In this document: one piece after another, positions 1-61,094 of the stretch
Layout: each line of letters opens with the position of its first letter
How positions within the stretch are numbered: position 1 is the stretch's first letter
NCBI GenBank assembly: GCA_021307315.1
Contig: JAJSPD010000085.1
Location: 121,845 to 185,844 of the forward strand
DNA from: Bisporella sp. PMI_857
Lineage: Eukaryota; Ascomycota; Leotiomycetes; Helotiales; Helotiaceae
Direction: 5' to 3'
DNA length: 64,000 nucleotides
The notes under the pieces: model-generated
Database searches by the model: none
What the model saw: the letters and a program-made list of their open reading frames with translations, nothing else
What the model was told of the DNA's origin: nothing
Program-made: the position numbers and the translations under genes

Positions 1-753
1 ACGCTTGAAGGCCACTCTTCCTCTGTTACATCTGTAGCCTTCTCTCCTGACGACAAGCAAGTCGTCTCTGGATCATGGGATAGAACGGTGCGGCTTTGGG
101 ACGCTTCTACAGGAGCAGGGCTGCAGACGCTTGAGGGCTATTTTTCCTACGTTTACTCTGTGGCCTTTTCCCCTGATGGCAAGAAGGTCGTTTCTGGATC
201 TAGCGATAAAACAGTGCGGCTTTGGGATACTGTTACAGGAGCGGCGCTGCGGACGCTTGAAGGCCATTCTTCTTCCGTTAACTCTGTAGCCTTTTCTTTT
301 GACGGCAAGCAAGTCGTCTCTGGATCTAGCGACAAAACGGTGCGGCTTTGGGACGCTGCTACAGGAGCGGCACTGCAGACGCTCGAAGGCCATTCTTCTT
401 CCGTTAACTGTGTAGCTTTCTCTTCTGACGGCAAGAAGGTTGTCTCTGAATCATGGGATAAAACGGTGCGGCTTTGGGATGCCTCTACAGGAGCGACGCT
501 GCAGCTTGAAAGCCATTCTTCCTTTGTTAATCCTGTGGACTCTGTGGCCTTTTCCCCTAATAGCACTCTATCTACTTTGCATGTATCTGATTATTGGGTA
601 GTAGAACATAAAGCGGATATTCTCTGGCTACCTCCCGATTACCGATCTATTTGTGAAGCTATTTGGGATCAAACTATTGTTCTAGGACATTCATCAGGGA
701 AACTTTCATTTCTTCAGTTCAGACAAGGGCCAAAGCTTATAGTACGTAGCTAG
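1..753 (+). CDS. WD40-repeat STAND protein, C-terminal part
   Basis: The frame is open from the first base to a TAG at 751-753, so the gene begins outside the window. It holds four full 126-bp (42-residue) WD40 units with starts near 1, 127, 253 and 379, then a degenerate fifth. Each unit carries a VAFSPDGK strand and a TVRLWD end. The tail after the propeller has DILWLPPDYR and IVLGHSSGK blocks, which I know from the C-termini of fungal NACHT/NB-ARC WD40 proteins. In that family the propeller is the ligand-sensing part of a STAND receptor for programmed cell death and non-self recognition. The nucleotide-binding half is not visible, so that assignment is inferred from the family. The units are very alike at DNA level, typical of fungal repeats under concerted evolution. 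Confidence 0.85.
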   Translation, partial: TLEGHSSSVTSVAFSPDDKQVVSGSWDRTVRLWDASTGAGLQTLEGYFSYVYSVAFSPDGKKVVSGSSDKTVRLWDTVTGAALRTLEGHSSSVNSVAFSFDGKQVVSGSSDKTVRLWDAATGAALQTLEGHSSSVNCVAFSSDGKKVVSESWDKTVRLWDASTGATLQLESHSSFVNPVDSVAFSPNSTLSTLHVSDYWVVEHKADILWLPPDYRSICEAIWDQTIVLGHSSGKLSFLQFRQGPKLIVRS

Positions 754-7034: not shown

Positions 7035-7560
7035 TTATGAGATCTTCAACTTTCCTCCAAAACAGTACAACTCAATACCTTCCGGTACCTCTGATTTCCC
7101 ACTCCGCTTAAGGCATTTTGTCCCTTTGTCCTTCTTCCCCTTGCTATCCATTACAAAGATAGTAACATTACACTCCTGGAAGGTTACAGTTTGACCTATG
7201 CCAACAATCCACTTTACATCGTTTGCATCACGGACATCATCGAAAACATCGGTCGATTCGAGATCGCGAGGTTCAAAAGCCTTATACCATATTAGATTAG
7301 GATTGCTCACGGGCGAGGCGGCTTACCATTGACACGATGTCTTATTACTGCTAGGATACAGTGCCGGAGAAAATCGATCGCTCGGCGACTTCACCCTGCT
7401 TTGCGGAGTGCAATGATAGATCTCCTTGGGAAAAATGGTATCCCGGCAACTCGTTGCGAACGCTTGCAAATCCGGGCTGCTTAGAACGGAGATCGTCTGT
7501 CACCGTGTGTATAGCCCGTATAATATCAACAGCTGCCTGGGCCGCATGGTAAACGAAGAG
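7035..7560 (-). CDS. Hypothetical protein, possible exons
   Basis: Two minus-strand frames read like protein. The upper one (about 7560-7368) contains AAQAAVDIIRAIHTVTDDLR and LPGYHFSQGDLSLHSAK. The lower one (7310-7035) contains DVRDANDVKWIVGIGQTV and ends at a stop. They could be two exons of one gene, but I could not place a clean splice between them. No family is recognised. Confidence 0.3.
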
Positions 7561-12267: not shown

Positions 12268-12545
12268 CCTGAGCCAATCAAATAGCTAGATTTCACTTAT
12301 CATAATTCCGAAATCAACTTCTGTAAGCTCCTAAGAACTCCTGAGAACTCTTAAGCCAATCAAATAGCTAGATTTCATTTATTATAATTCCGAAATCAAC
12401 TCCTGTAAGCTCCTGAGAACTCCTGAGAACTCCTAAGAACTCCTGAGCCAATCAAATAGCTAGATTTCACTCATAACAATTCCGAAATCAACTTCTGTAA
12501 ACTCCTGTAAGCTTGTGAGAACTCCTAATAACTCCTGAGCCAACC
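12268..12545. repeat. Three tandem copies with the CTCCTGAGCCAAT motif
   Basis: Units of about 80-95 bp repeat AACTCCTGAGCCAATCAAAT, then GCTAGATTTCA and AATTCCGAAATCAACT. The core motif, and its reverse complement, also occurs at many other points of the 11.4-kb element. Confidence 0.7.
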
Positions 12546-22098: not shown

Positions 22099-22149
22099 AT
22101 TCGAGAAAGTGTTTTAATTGGCTCAGGAGTTTCCAGGAGTTTAAAGGAG

Positions 22150-22280
22150 TTTGAAGGAGTTTTCAGGAGTTCGCAGAAGTTTGTAAAGGTTTGCAGAAGT
22201 TTGCAGAGGTTTGCAGAGGTTTGCAGAGGTTTGCAGAGGTTTGCAGAGGTTCGCAGAGGTTCGCAGAGGCTTGAAAAGTT
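22150..22280 (+). repeat. 10-bp tandem repeat TTTGCAGAGG
   Basis: About nine near-perfect copies of a TTTGCAGAGG decamer follow an ATTGGCTCAGGAGTT motif near the right side of the 11.4-kb element. Confidence 0.7.
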
Positions 22281-24446: not shown

Positions 24447-25084
24447 TATTTAAAAGCAACACGAGATCGAAATTTTGGACATTCAGCAAATTAATTACTT
24501 CTAGCTCCTCTCTTTTGGGCCAATTTGAATGCCTGCGCATGGCCCAGTGCGACATAGGTGGTTGGGCCAGCTCCAGAAGCGCCAAGGAGGACCCAGCGGC
24601 TGCGAGCGTAAAGGCTGAGCAGCAAATTGGTGCCCAAATCTTCCTGCCAAGCGGCAGACAACACAAGGCGGTGAAACCCCCAACCGCCAGTAGTACACGC
24701 TAGAATCAGAACAGCAATAAGCTGTGTCCTTACATCGTCTCTAAGCATAGGTTCATACCCACTAGAAATGCCAATGCTATAGAATAAAATTAATTCTTTC
24801 GCCCATATCGCTGATGCAAAACTGTCTAGGATTGTAAAATTGAAGATCGTGGTCAACAATGCTGTGAAACATTCGTTACCTGGACCTGATTGGACATCAT
24901 TACCTCCACAAAAGCCGGCGATTATGCCTATGGCTCTGCCCCGCGTAAAGGTGGCGTCGAACTCAGCCTCATAAGTAAGAACAGCTGAACATGGACCTTC
25001 GCTTGATATCAATGTTGAAAATCTGTGTCACGATCAGTGAAGAACCGCACAGCTTTATGCCATTTTACCCCAGACCGTTATGCT
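24447..25084. other. Spacer between MULE and NLR gene
   Basis: A long minus-strand frame (25012-24491) lacks a near ATG start and shows no known domain. This span should hold the promoter of the NLR gene at 25085. Confidence 0.4.
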
Positions 25085-28000
25085 ATGGCAGAACCTTTTG
25101 GCGTCGTTGGCGTTATTGGCCTGGTTATTCAAATCACCCAAGCAGTGGTTCAAATTGGCTTAGATTGGAAAGATGCACCAGACAATGTCAAAGCATTTAT
25201 GGCGGAGCTGGGAACCTTAAAAATTATATTGTCGGAAACAAATGCTAATATTATTCTTAATTCAGAATTCGAAAAAGCGTTTCATAATCGACCATCGCTT
25301 CTCTTTTCGCAGCTAGGTCCTAATGCTTCGAGTACAGACACAAAATTTATGTTGGACCTTTGTCGGGAAAAACTGGAAGATTTGCTGAAAGAGCTCACGA
25401 AAAAAGAATACGGCCACCGGCTAGGTTGGGACAGGTTAAAAGGAGCATTTTTGGCCAAAGCTACTCGAGATTCAGTCGAAAACCTTAGCCGACAGTGTCA
25501 AATCCTGAACTCTATGCTTTCTATCGATACAGCAGTGCTTGCGGCGAGTACTTACAAAAAAGTCAGCGAAGCAAAAGAAGAGCAGCAGCGATGGCATCAA
25601 ACGGACAACGAAACGTTATTAGCTATTCGAAACAGCGCTGATCGGTCCGAATTGTGGCAGAAAAGCAAAGAAAACCAAGCTATCCTTAACTGGCTCTCTC
25701 CGATCGATTATACTTCTCAGCAGCATGACTTTATCCGTAGACAACAGCCGGGAACTGGCCAATGGCTGTTAGATGCGGCGGAATATCAAGAATGGATAAG
25801 AGTGAAAAAGAAAACATTATTCTGCCCCGGGATCCCTGGCGCTGGAAAAACAATTCTGACAGCAATCGTAATTGATGACCTTAGTACGCGTTTTGCCAAC
25901 GAAAGAAATGTTGGGCTGGCTTATGTTTATTGCAATTTTAAACGGCAAGATAAGCAAAAAATTGACGATCTTTTTGCAAACCTACTGAAGCAGCTTAGCC
26001 AAGGAACAGTATCTCTGCTAAATAACATAAAATCTCTTTACGACCACCATTCAAAAAAGCAGTCTCGACCGGCGAAGGACGAAATCTTGAAAGCACTGCG
26101 GCATGCAGCTTCTACATTCTCGAGAGTTTTTATCATTGTTGATGCTTTAGACGAGTGCCAAGTGTCTGATGGCTGCCGAACGGAGCTTTTGTCAGAGCTT
26201 TTTGACCTCCAGGCAAAATGCCAGACCAATTTATTTGCGACTTCGAGGTTTCTCCCGGAAGTTGATAAAACATTCGAAAGTAGCATACATTTAGAAATTC
26301 GAGCAAGCGAACAGGATGTCCAGAGATACTTAGATGGTCACTTATCGTCGCTTCCGAAATTTGTACGAGATAATTCGGAACTAAAAAACGAAGTTAAATG
26401 TGAGATCATTAAGGCTGTCGATGGCATGTAAGTTTTTTAGTTTTTTTTTAGAGTTCTAGTAGATGATGCTAATACTTGCGCTTTATAGGTTCCTGCTTGC
26501 ACAGCTTCATCTTAACTCTTTAAAAGGGAAAAGATCCCCAAAAGCTGTCCGTACTGCTCTAAGCAAGCTTGTCACTGGATCCGAGGCGTATGACCGTGCG
26601 TACGAGGAAGCAATGGAAAGAATTGAAGGTCAACTTTCGGACGAAGAAGAGCTTGGAAAACAGGTACTCTATTGGATCATATGCGCAAAGCGCCCGTTAA
26701 CTACGGCTGAGCTTCAACACGCTCTTGCAGTTGAGCCTGAAGAAACGCAGCTTAACGTTGAGAATTTATCACAAGTAACAGATATGATTGCGGCATGCGC
26801 TGGACTAGTCACGGTTGACAAAGAAAGCAGAATCATTCGTTTAGTCCATTATACAACGCAAGAATACTTTAAACGAACTCAGCATAAATGGTTTCCTGCA
26901 GCAGAAGCGAGTATAGCATCGACTTGCATTACATACCTTTCTTTTTATTCATTTAACAGTGGAGCTTGCTGTTCCGATACTGAACTTGAAAAGCGACTTC
27001 AATCTAATATGCTATACTATTATGCCGCACAGAACTGGGGACATCACGCTCGAGGAGCTTCGGTTTTAATTACTGAAGTTGTGAACTTCCTGTGTCACGG
27101 ACCTAATTTGGAAGGATCAATCCAGGCTTTAATGGCTCAAAAACTTTATTCTATGCAGTCAAATTATAGCGAGAATTTTCCGAGAGGAATGACAGGACTG
27201 CACACAGCCGCGTATTTCGGTATCGAAAGCGTGATAAATATTTTGCTAGATCAGGGGCATCTCAACATACAGGATAGCAATGGTAAAACACCGCTAGCGT
27301 GGGCTGCTGAAAATGGCCATGAAGCTGTTGTCAGGCTGTTGCTTGACGCAAACAAAATCGATGTCGACTTACAAGACAAGTCCGGCCAGACCCCGCTATC
27401 GTGGGCTGCTCGAAATGGCCATGAAGCTGTTGTCAGGCTGTTGCTTGACACAGGTAAAATCGATATCGACTTACAAGACAAGTCCGGCCAGACACCGCTA
27501 TCGTGGGCTGCTCGAAATGGCCATGAAGCTATTGTTAGACTGTTGCTTGACACAGGTAAAATCTATGTCGACTTAAAAGACAAGTCCGGCCAGACACCGC
27601 TATTGCGGGCTGCTCGGAATGGCCATGAAGCTATTGTTAGACTGTTGCTTGGCACAGGAAAAGTTGATATTGACTCACAAAACAACGAGTCCAGCTGGAC
27701 ACCGCTGTTGTGGGCTGCTGATAATGGCCACGAAGCTATTGTTAGACTATTGCTTGACACAGGCAAGGTTGATATTAACTTCCAAGACAACGAGTACGGC
27801 CGGACACCGCTATCGTTGGCTGCTGAGAGTGGCCATGAAGCTGTTGTTAGGCTGCTGCTTGACACAGGAAAAGTTAATGTTGACTCACGAGACGAGTACG
27901 GCCACACACCGCTATCGTTGGCTGCTTGGAATGGCCACGAAGCTATTGTTAGACTGTTGCTTGACACAGGCAAAGTTGATATTAACTTCCAAGACAACGA

Positions 28001-29165
28001 GTACGGCCGGACACTGCTATCGTTGGCTGCTGAGAGTGGCCATGAAGCTGTTGTCAGGCTGTTGCTTGACACAGGAAAAGTTGATATCGACTCACGAAGC
28101 AAGTCGGGTCGCACACCGATATCGTTGGCTGCTCAGAATGGCCATGTAACTATTGTCAGGCTGTTGCTTGACACAGGCAAAGTTGATATCGACTCACAAG
28201 ACAAGTCCGGCCATATAACACTATCTTGGGCTGCTCAGGATAAGCGTAAAGCTGTTGCCAGACTGCGGCTTAACATAGGAACAGTTGATATTGACTCACG
28301 AGACGAGTACGGCCAGACACCGCTATCGTGGGCTGCTTGGAATGGCCATGAAGCTATTGTTAGACTGTTGCTTGACACAGGCAACGTTAATATCGACTCA
28401 CGAAGCAAGTCCGGTCACACACCGCTATCGTGGGCTGCTTGGAATGGCCATGAAGCTGTTGTCAGGCTGTTGCTTGACACAGGAAAAGTTGATATCGACT
28501 CACGAAGCAAGTCCGGCCAGACCCCGCTATTGTTGGCTGCTCAGAATGGCCATGTAACTATTGTCAGGCTGTTGCTTGACACAGGCAACGTTAATATCGA
28601 CTCACGAAGCAAGTCCGGTCACACACCGCTATCGTTGGCTGCTCAAAATAGCCATGAAGCTATTGTTAGACTGTTGCTTGACACAGGCAAAGTTGATATT
28701 AACTTCCAAGACAACGAGTATGGCCGGACACTGCTATCGTGGGCTGCTGAGAGTGGCCATGAAGCTGTTATCAGGCTGTTGCTTGACACAGGCAAAGTTG
28801 ATATCGACTCACGAAGCAAGTCCGGCCAGACGCTGCTATTGTGGGCTGCTGAGAATGGACGCGAAGCTATTGTCAGGCTATTGCTCGACACAGGAAAAGT
28901 TGATATTAACTTACAAGACAACGAGTACGGCCAGACGCCACTATCGTGGGCTGCCCAGAATGGGTACGAGGCTATTGTCAGTCTGCTGCTTGAGAATGGC
29001 GCGATTACAGATATAGTAAACCGAACTGGTTGCGCTAGTCTACAGCTAGCAGCATTGAATAAGCATGAGGAGATAGAGCGAATCTTGATAATGCACAATG
29101 CATATGAACCCGAAGACTTTTATGGTCTTCAAGCTCTTTTCTTTGAGGCATTAGTTACAGTATAG
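25085..29165 (+). CDS. NLR-like NACHT protein with 19 ankyrin repeats
   Basis: Exons 25085-26427 and 26489-29165, joined over a 61-nt GTAAGT...ATAG intron with GCTAAT branch site, give 1339 residues without a stop. I chose the ATG at 25085 because MAEPFGVVGVIGLVIQI is the usual start of fungal NLR N-terminal domains; an upstream in-frame extension has none of this character. The NACHT domain shows CPGIPGAGKT (Walker A) and VFIIVDALDEC (Walker B). From about residue 700 there are 19 ankyrin units of 34-35 residues built on GQTPLSWAARNGHEAIVRLL. Several units are almost identical at DNA level. Fungal NLRs of this build sense non-self and trigger cell death; ligand unknown. The gene begins about 640 bp right of the MULE end and shows no RIP-like stops. 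Confidence 0.9.
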
Positions 29166-55975: not shown

Positions 55976-58900
55976 ATGGAGGTAAGCCGACAGGCTGTGA
56001 AGTGTTATATTTTGAACTGATAGCGGTTTCTAAACTTCTATAGGAGGAGGTAAGAAAGTTCGTCGGAGTTTGGATAGCTAGAGTTAGTAGCTGACCGCAT
56101 CTTCTTGATAATCGCAGCGTGTAAGTGAACTTTCCATAGAAAAATGTACTGAATCGCCAGCTAAGTACGTGGTTTTAACGGCTGCAGCGTGTAAGTGGAC
56201 CCCGTTACGAAAGAGTGTTCTAAATAGATAGCTAACCGTGTGTTCTTGAGGATTATAGTATGTAAGTGGACCTGGCCAGAGAGTAATATACTAGATTGCC
56301 AGCTAAATACGTCCTCTTGACGGCTGTAGCGTGTAGGTAGATCGTGCTAAGAAAGGGTATACTGGATAAGTGGCTGATCGCGTGTTCTTGACGGCTGTAG
56401 TGGGTAAGTAGACTCTGCTTAAGAACAGTATGCTGAATAAATAGCTGACTACGTGTTTTTAATGGCTGTAGGAAGTAAGTAGACTCTGCTTAAAATAGTA
56501 TGCTGAATAAATAGCTAACTACTTGATGTTAATGGCTGTAGTATGTAAGTAGACTTTGTTCAAAAATAGTATACTAAATAAATAGCTGACTATATGTTTT
56601 TAATGGCTGTAGCATGTAAGTAGACTTTGTTCGAGAATAGTATACTAGATAAATAGCTGACTACGTGTTTTTAATGGCTGTAGCCTGTAAGTAGGCTATA
56701 TTCGAAAATAGTATACTAAATAAATAGCTAACTACGTGTTTTTAATGACTGTAGCCTGTAAGTAGACTATATTCGAGAATAGTATACTACATAAATAGCT
56801 GACTACGTATTTTTAATGACTGTAGAAAGTAAGTAGACTCTGCTTGAGAATAGTATGCTGAATAAATAGCTGACTACGTGTTTTTAATGGCTGTAGAAAG
56901 TAAGTAGACTCTGCTCGAGATAGTATGCTGGATAAATAGCTGACTACGTGTTTTTAATGGCTGTAGCTTGTAAATAGACTCTGTTCGAGAATAGTATGCT
57001 AAATAAATAGCTGACTACGTGTTTTTAATGGCCGTAGCCCGTAAGTAGACTCTGTTCGAGAATAGTATACTAAATAAATAGCTGACTACGTGTTTTTAAT
57101 GGCTGTAGCTTGTAAGTAAACTCTACTTGAGAATAGTATACTGAATAGATAGCTAATTACGTGTTTCTAATGACTGTAGCGTGTAAGTATACTTTGTTCG
57201 AGAATAGTATACTAGATAAATGGCTGACTACGTGTTTTTAATGGCTGTAGCGTGTAAGTAGGCTTTGCTCAAGAATAGTATATTACATAAATAGCTGACT
57301 ACGTGTTTTTAATGGCTGTAGGAAGTAAGTAAACCCTGTTCGAAATAGTATGCTGAATAAATAGCTGATTATGTGTTTTTAATGGCTGCAGCCTGTAAGT
57401 AGACTTTGTTTAAAAATAGCATACTAAATAAATAGCTAACTACGTGTTTTTAATGGCTGTAGCATGTAAGTAGACTATATTCGAAAATAGTATACTAAAT
57501 AAATAGCTGACTACGTGTTTTTAATGGCTGTAGTATGTAAGTATACTTTGTTCGAGAATAGTATACTAAATAAATAGCTGACTACGTGTTTTTAATGGCT
57601 GTAGCGTGTAAGTAGACTCTGCTTGAAAATAGTATACTAAATAAATAGCTGACTACGTGTTTTTAATGGCTGTAGCGTGTAAGCAGACTCTGCTCGAAAT
57701 AGCATGCTGGATAAATAGCTAACTACGTGTTTTTAATGGCTGTAGCTTGTAAGTAAACTATGTTCGAGAATAGTATACTGAATAAATAGCTGACTACGTG
57801 TTTTTAATGGGTGTAGAAAGTAAGTAGACTCTGCTTGAGAATAGTATGCTGAATAAAGAGCTGACTACATGTTTAACGGCTGTAGTATGTACGTAAACTT
57901 CGCTCGAGAATAGTATACTAGATAAATAGCTAACTATATATTTTGACGGCTGTAGGGTGTAAGTAGACCCTACTCGAAAGTATTATACTAAATGGATAGC
58001 TAATCTTGTTTTTCTAATTATTATAGCTGGTTAGTAAACCCTGCTAGAGAAACTATAATGATAATAACTATGTTTCTTTTACGGTTATAGAATGTAAGTA
58101 CATACTAATGTAGAGTGACTCGCTAGTTAAATGGCTAACTGTATCCTTTTATGGCTATAGGATGTAAATAACCCAAATGAACTATTATATCAGATGAACA
58201 GCTAACTCCGCGTTAACGGTAATAGAGAGTAAGTAAACTCGGCTAAAATGAAGCGTGCATCTTTATTGGCTAATTATACCTTTCTTGCCTTTATATAGAT
58301 TGTAAGTGGAAAGTATTTTAGTGCCATAGTTTTATACTTGCCTATTAGCTAACTATAACTTCTAATGACGGATAGGAAGTAAGTTAAGTAATAACGAGAT
58401 TCCCGTTTAAATTAATGTATTTGAACCCTTCTAATTAGTCTAGACTGTAAGTAAACCCTATTTAAGCAATATATATTTATATCTAAATTACTAACACTGC
58501 CTTCTTTTAAATGTAGGTTGTAAGTAAAGCCGCTTCCAACAGACCTTCCTATCGACTTTTAGCTGTATTGCCTCCTTACGACTATAGAAAGTGAGTATCC
58601 CTATCTAGGCCCGCCTTTCTATATTTTTGTAGCTAATTCTCGCCTTCCTAATATTATAGACTGTAAGTCACTTCTGATACAGTAGATCTTTCTCCTAAAA
58701 TTATCGCTGACCGCGCCGCCTTAACTATTGCAGGGAGTAAGTGAATTTATCGGGGTGTATATATCAACTTCTTGAAATGGTAGCTGATTGTACCTATTTG
58801 GCGGCTGCAGCTGGTAAGTTGAGGAAACCAGGCCAGAGCAATTCTCTTGTCTCACTAATTAATTGTGCCTCCTTATGATTGTAGGAAGTAAGTAAACTCT

Positions 58901-61094
58901 AGAATCGGCCACATTCTTATCTGAAGCTTACCACACACTTCGATAGCTGTATAGATTCGGAGACACGCCGACGGAAGATGAGGAAGTATCGGACTTGGCT
59001 ATCCATTTTGCGAAGCAGCACCTCCAATCCCATTCAAGATCTGAAATGTTATTGAAGCTGTGCGACTTATGCATTAGTATCCCTACTAAGTGGCTGCTCG
59101 AATCGCCAAAAAATGGCTATACTCTTTTTAAGAATGGACGAGAGCTAAGGGAGTCTGAAAAAACATGCGACCTCTGCGGGCTGGTCTGCGAGTTGACACT
59201 ACGATCCCACGGTAGTCTAGATTACGTGCAGAAAGTCAACATTGGTATTGAGCCACGATTCTTGATTATCGAAGCCGTAATTGGCGGTACGGTCAAACAC
59301 AGTTTTCTAAGACTCTGTGCAGATCCAGGTAGGTGGCATCTTTCAATGTCCAGATCTCCACGCATTCGCTTAGATTTATTCTAACTGTGATTAGACTCAG
59401 AAGCCGCAAGTATGGGTATTGGAGTGGGACTTCCACTCTTACTTGAAATGGGTACGGAACGGAATTTTTCCCTGCTTCGTGAATGGCTTCAAGACTGCGA
59501 CAAGAGTCACAGCGATCATAGATATGATTCTGCCAACAAAAAATTGCCGACAAGACTACTCGACGTTGGAGATTCGAAAAACTCGGAGAGGCTACTCCTT
59601 TACGATACCAATGAGAAACGAGGAGAGGACATTGAATGGAAAAAGTACATTGCCTTGTCTCATTGCTGGGGGGGTGCCACGCCGCTTCGTACCGAGAAAG
59701 GCACTATTGAGGCTCACCGCAAAGCAATGAAGTTCGAGGACTTACCGGAATTGTTTCAAGACGCTGTCACGGTTACTCGAAATCTTGGAATGCAGTTTCT
59801 CTGGATCGATTCACTTTGCATAATTCAGGATGATGAAAACGATTGGCAACGTGAAGCAAAACGCATGCAGGATATTTTTGCTTCTGCGTACTGTACTATC
59901 GCCGCCTCCACTGCCAAGAACTCGAAGGAACACTTTCTCCCTCGGACTGGCAAAAGGGTTGTCAAGCTTGTGGACAACAGCACAGGCACTTCATTCAACA
60001 TCTACGCTTGTGAAGTCGGCGGAAGTTTTAATGACGATGTAGAAAAGGGCGAGCTGAACAAACGCGGCTGGGTGTTACAAGAGCGAGCCTTATCACCTCG
60101 GACCATACATTTCGCCGGAACGTACACGTACTGGGAGTGCGGGTCTGTGATCCGTTGCGATAATCTGACTCAAATGGCTAAGTGAGTGTTATTTCGTATG
60201 GTCAGATCTCATAATTGCCCTTTGTTCATATATCCCCAATCCATTCGCGCCGATTTCATAATCTAACGTATTTTCTCAATGGAGCAAAGGCCTTCAAACC
60301 TGCTTAGTAGTTCTCGGTTCCCAATGATGACTGCAGGGCCACCTTCAGGAGGTGCAGTCTTTGCATTCGAAGATATCTTTGCCAGATACTCACAACGCGC
60401 CCTTACACGCAAAACAGACCGACCATATGCAATTGCCGGACTAGAACGTAGACTGGAGCAATTCTACTGGACGAAAAGTTCGCATGGCATTATTCACCGT
60501 TTCCTCGGCAAAAGCCTGCTCTGGCAACGGTCCGACAAGGCGTTGGAGGAAATAAAAGATTTCAAGATGGAGATAGTCCCATCGTGGTCGTGGATGAGAT
60601 ATGAGGGGAAGATTTGTTATGGAAATATTCCCACGATCGACACAAGCTGGGATCGAAGTATCGAACTCATCCCTACCAGCTTGAACGGTCCAGCTCAGTA
60701 CAAACTAGTGGGTTCAGTGGCGCAAATTTTGCCAAGTTGCAGCATTACACTGATGCCTGACACAACCTGCAAAATAAAATGCACCAAAGTTACCGTCGGA
60801 TGCATTCGATTTGACAATGAAAACCAACTCGATGTTGGACGTCTGGGATGCATTGTTCTCGCGCGGCATAAACCCAACGGCTGGAACGAAATTAGTCAAG
60901 AGAGTTGGAAAAAGTTTGCACGTGTTTCTTGGGATGAGCAGTTGGAGTCAGGTATTCTTTTTTACGTCCTGGTTGTCTCATATGCCGCTCTCGGGCAGGC
61001 ATGCGAAGCAGCGTCCCAAAGGCTGGGCGTGGCAGTTATCCAGGGTGAATATCTTTCATTCAGTGAACCACCGCGACGTCTGGAAATGTTCTAA
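55976..61094 (+). CDS. HET-domain protein with a 5' array of one-codon exons
   Basis: ATG at 55976 (context CAAAATGG) begins a 45-exon model: ATGGAG (55976-55981), GAGGAG (56044-56049), forty 3-nt exons, then 58947-59328, 59395-60181 and 60290-61094. The exons sum to 2106 nt, 701 residues plus stop, with no frame break. The first large exon opens at a TAG that is itself the splice acceptor, in phase 0. The HET domain spans about residues 240-400: YIALSHCWGG, QFLWIDSLCIIQDDENDW, MQDIFASAYCTIAA and KRGWVLQERALSPRTIHF are the family's three usual blocks. HET proteins trigger cell death upon meeting a non-self partner. Introns 43 and 44 (59329-59394, 60182-60289) are ordinary; the second ends AAAG, which is less usual. 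Confidence 0.8.
55982..58946 (+). repeat. Array of 42 short introns split by 3-nt exons
   Basis: Each unit reads GTAAGT (rarely GTGAGT, GTAAAT, GTTAGT, GTACGT, GTAGGT or GTAAGC), a branch site such as AGCTGACTA or GCTAACT, then TAG or CAG, then exactly three bases, then the next GT. Units from about 56401 to 57888 are near-identical with a 70-71-bp period and share CGAGAATAGTATACTAAATA and GTGTTTTTAATGGCTGTAG. Outer units (55982-56400 and 57889-58946) have diverged in sequence and vary from 59 to 74 bp but keep donor, branch site, acceptor and the 3-base spacing. The forty codons include 18 different ones, CGT seven times, and no stop. Confidence 0.85.

Follow-up and report, generated by a model that had tools for sequence, protein, structure and literature searches.

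We analysed a 64,000-nucleotide stretch of the 55.6 Mb genome of Bisporella sp. PMI_857 (GCA_021307315.1, contig JAJSPD010000085.1, positions 121,845 to 185,844; referred to here as the window), and in it a gene for a HET domain protein whose 5' part is a series of three-base blocks set between intron-like segments (Table 1). All forty blocks are preceded by [CT]AG (35 TAG, 5 CAG) and followed by GT, mostly as GTAAGT, and an exact RCTRAY branch-site motif is present in 34 of the 39 introns between them, nearly always starting 25 to 31 nt before the next exon. Spliced as predicted, 42 exons would give a leader of 44 codons without a stop (MEEERRYRWEYHPPKKLPLRREPHYRRLKYGLNDRIETVKTGLE), joined in phase 0 to the exon that opens with LYRFGDTPTEDEE... 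and yielding a HET protein of 657 residues with three long exons, whose HET domain (PF06985) scores 109.8 bits against a curated cut-off of 22.5.

Table 1. Predicted exon structure of the HET gene (window positions)
Feature	Position	Strand	Basis
Exon 1, ATGGAG (start codon and one codon)	55976..55981	+	sequence; donor GTAAGC next
Exon 2, GAGGAG	56044..56049	+	CTATAG acceptor, GTAAGA donor
One-codon array: forty 3-nt exons, separated by 39 introns (61-74 nt)	56118..58887	+	splice-site listing, chain search
Hypervariable part, array exons 5 to 27; introns near-identical (~71-nt period), codons differ	56401..57958	+	TRF (Tandem Repeats Finder) on the window: period 71, 23 copies
Anchor part, array exons 28 to 40; introns diverged	58027..58887	+	matched in three proteins from elsewhere
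Terminal acceptor TAG of the array, doubling as the in-frame stop that bounds the HET frame	58944..58946	+	sequence, phase-0 join
First long HET exon, opens LYRFGDTPTEDEE...	58947..59328	+	
Second long exon, HET domain PF06985 at 59646-60083	59395..60181	+	
Last exon, with stop	60290..61094	+	

A first-pass annotation made from the letters of this DNA had described forty three-base blocks between AG and GT. All forty lie where it placed them and are flanked as it claimed. Its ATGGAG start, its count of 44 codons over 42 exons and the lack of a stop among the blocks were reproduced from the sequence, and its double role for the terminal TAG, as acceptor and as frame-bounding stop with a phase-0 join into the HET protein, holds. 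A chain search by splice signals alone, from the donor of exon 2 to the acceptor at 58944-58946, recovers the identical forty codons. Exon 2 can alternatively be read as a single GAG codon, at the cost of a weaker acceptor. A TAG at 58952-58954 was tried as the acceptor and rejected, because the HET exon would then fall out of frame. For exon lengths besides 3 (0 to 15 nt, both strands of the window) no comparable chain was found, the next longest having 5 sites and lying inside ankyrin repeats. Pfam gave only a below-threshold match on the window leader.

Coding status of the three-base blocks

The longest one-codon chain in 600 dinucleotide-shuffled pieces of 9.9 kb (5.9 Mb) was 3, reached in 3 pieces, and in 15 other HET loci together with window positions 1-55500 it was at most 2. 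Chain length in the window is by itself weak evidence, because a tandem repeat copies its own motifs. Stronger tests come from proteins of other sources and from the short arrays of three paralogs (L030-L032, described below), whose introns are unlike each other.

The long exon that starts at 58947 has its first in-frame ATG at 59046. A motif that lies 5' of any in-frame ATG of this exon, FG-TPTEDEE, is common, with small changes, to four proteins (P0002, P0004, P0005 and P0007). Since no ATG precedes 59046 and yet the motif upstream of it is conserved in four proteins, coding sequence would have to come from further upstream. The anchor codons of array exons 28 to 40 (L N D R I E T V K T G L E), which are the last thirteen of the array (LNDRIETVKTGLE), have counterparts in P0005 of Xylaria bambusicola (LQRRIEAVRDGLE), P0007 (LQERIKAIENGLE) and P0004 (VYHRIAAMKVALE), and the matched blocks of these three proteins stand at equal distance to a G-[DNS]-[TS]-P-T-E-[DN]-E-E motif. 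Within them, RIETVKTGLE is identical at 7 of 10 positions to RIEAVRDGLE (P0005) and at 5 of 10 each to RIKAIENGLE (P0007) and RIAAMKVALE (P0004). When the order of the forty codons was shuffled, the score of the last thirteen was reached in 0, 0 and 13 of 200,000 shuffles for P0005, P0007 and P0004, respectively, and jointly in 0 of 200,000. Up to the end of the shared block P0007 has 88 and P0005 has 71 residues, in continuous predicted proteins; searches with N-terminal regions gave 2 proteins each. Finally, the 158 codons of the four long arrays (this gene and three paralogs) include no stop. Column shuffles within arrays expect 9.8 stops, and zero was reached in none of 100,000.

Several results weigh against reading the blocks as exons. 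The shuffle p values are too small, because related units were treated as independent. P0002 (Pyrenochaeta), the closest full-length relative at 68 percent, has FGDTPTEDEE in an annotated model without the RIE..GLE block, and the match to that block is thus present in 3 of the 4 proteins bearing the motif. The source sequences of P0004 and P0007 could be RNA or DNA. The public NCBI model of the window gene (P0001, Bisporella sp. PMI_857, 524 aa) starts at 59412, inside the second long exon, and ends at 61094, leaving the leader out. Taking both sides together, we consider it highly probable that the window blocks are exons, as predicted from their splice signals. The first-pass proposal that they belong to the HET gene is thus supported, at the level of predicted splicing, by the in-register protein matches, the codons shared among paralogs and the absence of stops.

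One-codon arrays in other HET genes

The genome has at least 150 HET matches, and 23 HET loci were examined with their upstream DNA: the window, the five best paralogs by score (L029-L033), L034-L048, and two loci chosen at 45 and 42 percent identity (L049 and L050, respectively). One-codon arrays were found in seven of them (the window, L029-L033 and L049) and none in the other 16, the longest one-codon chain in L034-L048 being 2; L037 was also read by eye, and L050 was read by eye. Loci L001-L008 were scanned as well, with flanks of just 1.5 kb per side. Loci were chosen by score or identity, and the fraction 7 of 23 therefore cannot be carried over to HET genes in general. The first-pass annotation had presented one gene with an array; the array is borne out, but the gene is not a single case.

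The six other genes carry arrays of 60 codons (L029, REDLRLHYYPEESPEEEPERDPDWDPFDGSGPYEDWFDETRRRDLRIEHDNKDHREYKAA, then LDNKWLY), 29 codons (L033, NEYHYRHRRYNYYDYHEHDRYEEYQHHHR, then LDVWH), at least 29 codons (L049, NEWENESFWERFENFFWERSWEKERSFEF, then PSLSRISQTES; its 5' end is beyond the retrieved piece), 7 codons each (L031 and L030) and 5 codons (L032). For each of these arrays a phase-0 join to an open exon downstream is available, and all six lie upstream of the HET part on the coding strand. A scan with GT[AGT]NG donors finds 36 blocks in L029, 14 in L033, 7 in L031, 5 in L030 and 3 in L032; the full chains come from the chain search for L029, L033 and L031, and from a site listing with hand-chosen blocks for L030 and L032.

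Introns of the long arrays have a mean identity of 0.76-0.86 within an array and 0.53-0.56 between arrays (15 introns compared per long array), against 0.48 when shuffled. Those of the short arrays (L030-L032, n=19) have a mean pairwise identity of 0.433 versus 0.430 shuffled. Despite these unrelated introns, the short-array codons agree in order: N-E-Y-R-F-T-P in L031, N-Q-Y-A-A-P-P in L030 and (Q-E)-Y-K-F-P-K in L032, with L-[DN]-D-x-W-[DE] after each (order permutation p 5.5e-5, including the Q and E that end the preceding exon of L032). An annotated Kalmusia protein (P0060), taken from a motif scan over the 120 listed proteins, reads EEYRYTP-LDDKWKY, which is 5/7 identical to L031 and ranks 4 of 5040 permutations. 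An open frame before the arrays of L030, L031 and L032 (exons ending at 7364, 7654 and 7643) encodes a protein kinase domain, and these arrays would therefore be linkers of kinase-HET fusions.

Other observations speak against this extension to a gene family. The short arrays have weak splice sites (AAAG and CAAG acceptors and a GTTAGA donor), and among the kinase-HET models looked at P0060 alone shows their codons, which are absent from P0121, P0122, P0037, P0029, P0067 and P0109. Of the 16 loci (out of 23) without an array, two, L037 and L050, belong to the kinase-HET family or to closely related HET genes; there, by eye, a single intron lies at the corresponding place. On balance, the arrays very probably mark out a gene family, HET as well as kinase-HET, whose leader or linker appears to be built codon by codon.

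Further observations concern these loci. Public models of L030-L032 relatives in other fungi may skip one-codon exons. In L050 (~1724-1900), the kinase-HET relative without an array, the ordinary exon after the single intron reads YVTEYLRESWDAIPD (by eye), which is perhaps the array motif after intron loss. GC donors occur in L029 (reverse complement) at 2893, as GAG|GCAAGT before the first block, and in L032 at 7768, as AAG|GCAAGA inside the array. The first exon before the L029 array holds a proline-rich repeat, PPADEPPADE (reverse complement, 2760-2870), and an open frame further upstream (reverse complement, ~740-1800) resembles, by eye, a Tc1/mariner-type transposase.

Codon variability and competing explanations

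Column tests took 22 of the 40 window units, 55 of 60 in L029, 27 of 29 in L033 and all 29 found in L049. Counted by transversions, the three codon columns hold ranks 1-3 of 49 in both the window core and L029 and ranks 2, 5 and 1 of 43 in L049; all three are thus among the five most variable columns in 3 of the 4 long arrays. In the nine closest intron pairs of the window core, 4.2 percent of intron sites differ versus 59 percent of codon sites. In a separate comparison, based on 21 of the 39 window units, the codon columns again ranked with the most variable. Charged, aromatic or amide residues predominate in the four long arrays, with 123 of the 158 codons encoding R, K, E, D, H, Y, W, F, N or Q. 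The closest intron pair in each of L029, L033 and L049 carries the same codon, and L033 and L049 each use a narrow codon palette. In the window (56401-57958), L029 and L033, differences between intron copies are mostly transitions and those between codons mostly transversions, except at position 2 of L033.

That position is a point against general hypervariability, the L033 codon columns having ranks 1, 23 or 28, and 1 of 49. A further point is that codon identity and flanking-intron similarity are nearly uncorrelated (p 0.06, 0.32 and 0.18; 0.009 in L049), so there is no clear evidence of codon and intron having simply been duplicated together. We nonetheless find it fairly likely that the codons are under selection for diversity, while the introns would be kept alike by exchange or by the needs of splicing.

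One rival account takes the array for a non-coding tandem repeat of the promoter or 5' leader that only resembles introns, with the HET protein starting downstream, at 59046 or 59412. The start of P0001 at 59412 agrees with it, and tandem repeats multiply any motif. Against it stand the FG-TPTEDEE motif shared by four proteins 5' of any ATG in its exon, leader codons that match other sources in register, codons shared by short arrays despite unrelated introns, 158 codons without a stop, and phase-0 joins to an open downstream exon in all six paralogs; we regard this account as very improbable. Better placed, though still improbable, is an origin in old ordinary coding DNA, into which introner-like elements were inserted repeatedly between codons, so that codon variety would need no selection for diversity. 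Codon identity barely tracks intron similarity, the nine closest window intron pairs mostly carry different codons, and P0007 and P0005 have 88 and 71 residues up to the shared-block end, continuous in the predicted proteins, as such an origin would have it. It requires, however, insertion exactly every three bases and in phase 0, tens of times over, and we know of no described mechanism for such regular insertion. The shared codons of the closest pairs in L029, L033 and L049 and the narrow palettes of L033 and L049 also speak against it, as does the confinement of units to their own array, which is unlike mobile introners. The latter were set aside because DNA searches with units of 3 of the 4 long arrays match the own array alone, except for one match at 75 percent over ~105 bases in another array; such a search skips very common words.

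A third explanation accepts the blocks as exons and holds that the array serves alternative splicing, combinatorial skipping giving a repertoire of leaders. All forty exons are 3 nt long and in phase 0, so any skip stays in frame, and the core units hardly differ in their splice signals, leaving little local sequence to match a given acceptor to a given donor. Passages of three citing papers report codon-sized, alternatively spliced microexons of this kind in nank genes of Tuber melanosporum (PMC4986451, PMC3689799, PMC10197012). Skipping one exon, however, would create an intron of ~139 nt, above the 61-74 nt found here, so short-intron pairing should favour inclusion, and the anchor codons common to other species argue for constant inclusion of the anchor part. 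We therefore treat skipping as the main purpose of the array as possible, though doubtful. The explanation we prefer as a whole, a leader of forty one-codon exons predicted to be spliced in phase 0 to a conserved HET protein, is likely on the sequence evidence.

Relation to known systems and possible role

The closest described genes are the nank (NACHT-ankyrin) NLR genes of the truffle Tuber melanosporum, whose codon-sized microexons are alternatively spliced (Iotti et al. 2012, as cited in passages of PMC4986451, PMC3689799 and PMC10197012); one of these citing papers describes tens of such exons. The remark of the first-pass annotation that it knew of no gene with dozens of such exons in series therefore does not stand, and this kind of gene was already known. 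In both cases, as far as those passages describe the truffle genes, tens of 3-bp exons stand in series (here predicted: 40 in the window, 60 in L029, 29 in L033, at least 29 in L049) in a family linked to non-self recognition. The NACHT and ankyrin NLR architecture of the truffle genes is not seen here: the window protein is HET only, and the upstream exons of L030-L032 encode a kinase domain. The host here is a different fungus, the array supplies an N-terminal leader or a linker, and hypervariable codons, array-specific introns and conserved anchor codons are seen. As far as open-access full texts were searched, arrays in HET and kinase-HET genes, shared anchor codons, array-specific intron repeats and hypervariable codon columns are new, and no report of one-codon arrays in HET genes was found in those texts.

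The arrays resemble HNWD-type HET-linked recognition genes in their near-identical, jointly evolving repeats with hypervariable codons. There, however, a WD40 domain on an NLR makes up the repeat, an architecture absent from the window protein; here the introns are the repeats, and at the protein level each repeat shows up as a single residue. Micro-exon genes (MEGs) of Schistosoma have longer exons of mixed lengths, and their proteins are secreted by the parasite. Runs of small symmetric exons, whose in-frame skipping can vary the protein, are a feature in common, whereas here the array exons are all single codons, in a protein of HET type. The Schistosoma genes are referenced in a passage of PMC11121469.

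Very short exons are reported elsewhere, namely a single-nucleotide exon in CYP621A of Fusarium (PMC12940212) and a 3-bp micro-exon in Drosophila homothorax (PMC7392893). Splicing can thus cope with exons as small as 1 to 3 nt, there as single exons and here in a predicted array. Introners spread over many genes, unlike the three unit sequences searched here, which stay in their own arrays with one weak match excepted. Introner-like elements of fungi are reported as near-identical introns in one genome (PMC4457414).

The window holds other repeat-bearing features. At 25025-29165 (+) lie NLR-type genes or exons, with a NACHT / NPHP3_N frame (25025-26431) followed by an ankyrin-repeat frame; the latter contains 16.6 copies of near-identical 102-bp units (27288-28993), and would be another receptor built of repeats, at a distance of ~27 kb to the HET gene. 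At 1-753 (+), 126-bp WD40 repeats that are 81 percent alike are cut by the window start and resemble HNWD-type receptors. Short 10-bp satellites occur at 22124-22275 (GTTTGCAGAG) and 12398-12447 (AACTCCTGAG).

Under the leader reading, the unit would be a short intron (donor, acceptor and a mostly exact branch-site motif) plus one codon. The spliceosome would remove each short intron by intron definition, leaving a leader of 44 residues on the window protein. Unequal exchange and conversion between the intron-borne repeats could add, drop or swap single codons without ever shifting the frame, and selection for change acting on the codons would produce a fast-evolving recognition or trigger peptide before the cell-death domain. 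A role of the leader or linker in non-self recognition seems to us evenly balanced. As the array exons are one codon long without exception, the frame survives any skip and many isoforms would be possible from one gene; regulated isoform diversity by block skipping is a tentative idea. Equally speculative is a class of one-residue-per-cassette receptors, in which every codon of a recognition peptide would have a cassette of its own between introns, germline recombination between the intron repeats would rewrite the peptide one residue at a time, and exon skipping would supply a large somatic repertoire of in-frame isoforms in the mycelium, placed before a cell-death domain.

If spliced as predicted, the arrays amount to at least 177 one-codon exons, spread over seven genes of this genome; for the window gene, the forty exons are missing from the public model. 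Such arrays would naturally put site pairing by the spliceosome to the test, with exons of 3 nt and as many as sixty of them in series. HET genes occur in large numbers, often with multiple alleles, and the drivers of their diversity are called an open question in a passage of PMC10197012. The leader or linker, hidden and hypervariable, offers a concrete sensor candidate, one that annotation pipelines may overlook elsewhere. If the reading is true, a recognition surface would evolve here by means of a non-coding, recombining repeat of which the protein sees just the variable residue.

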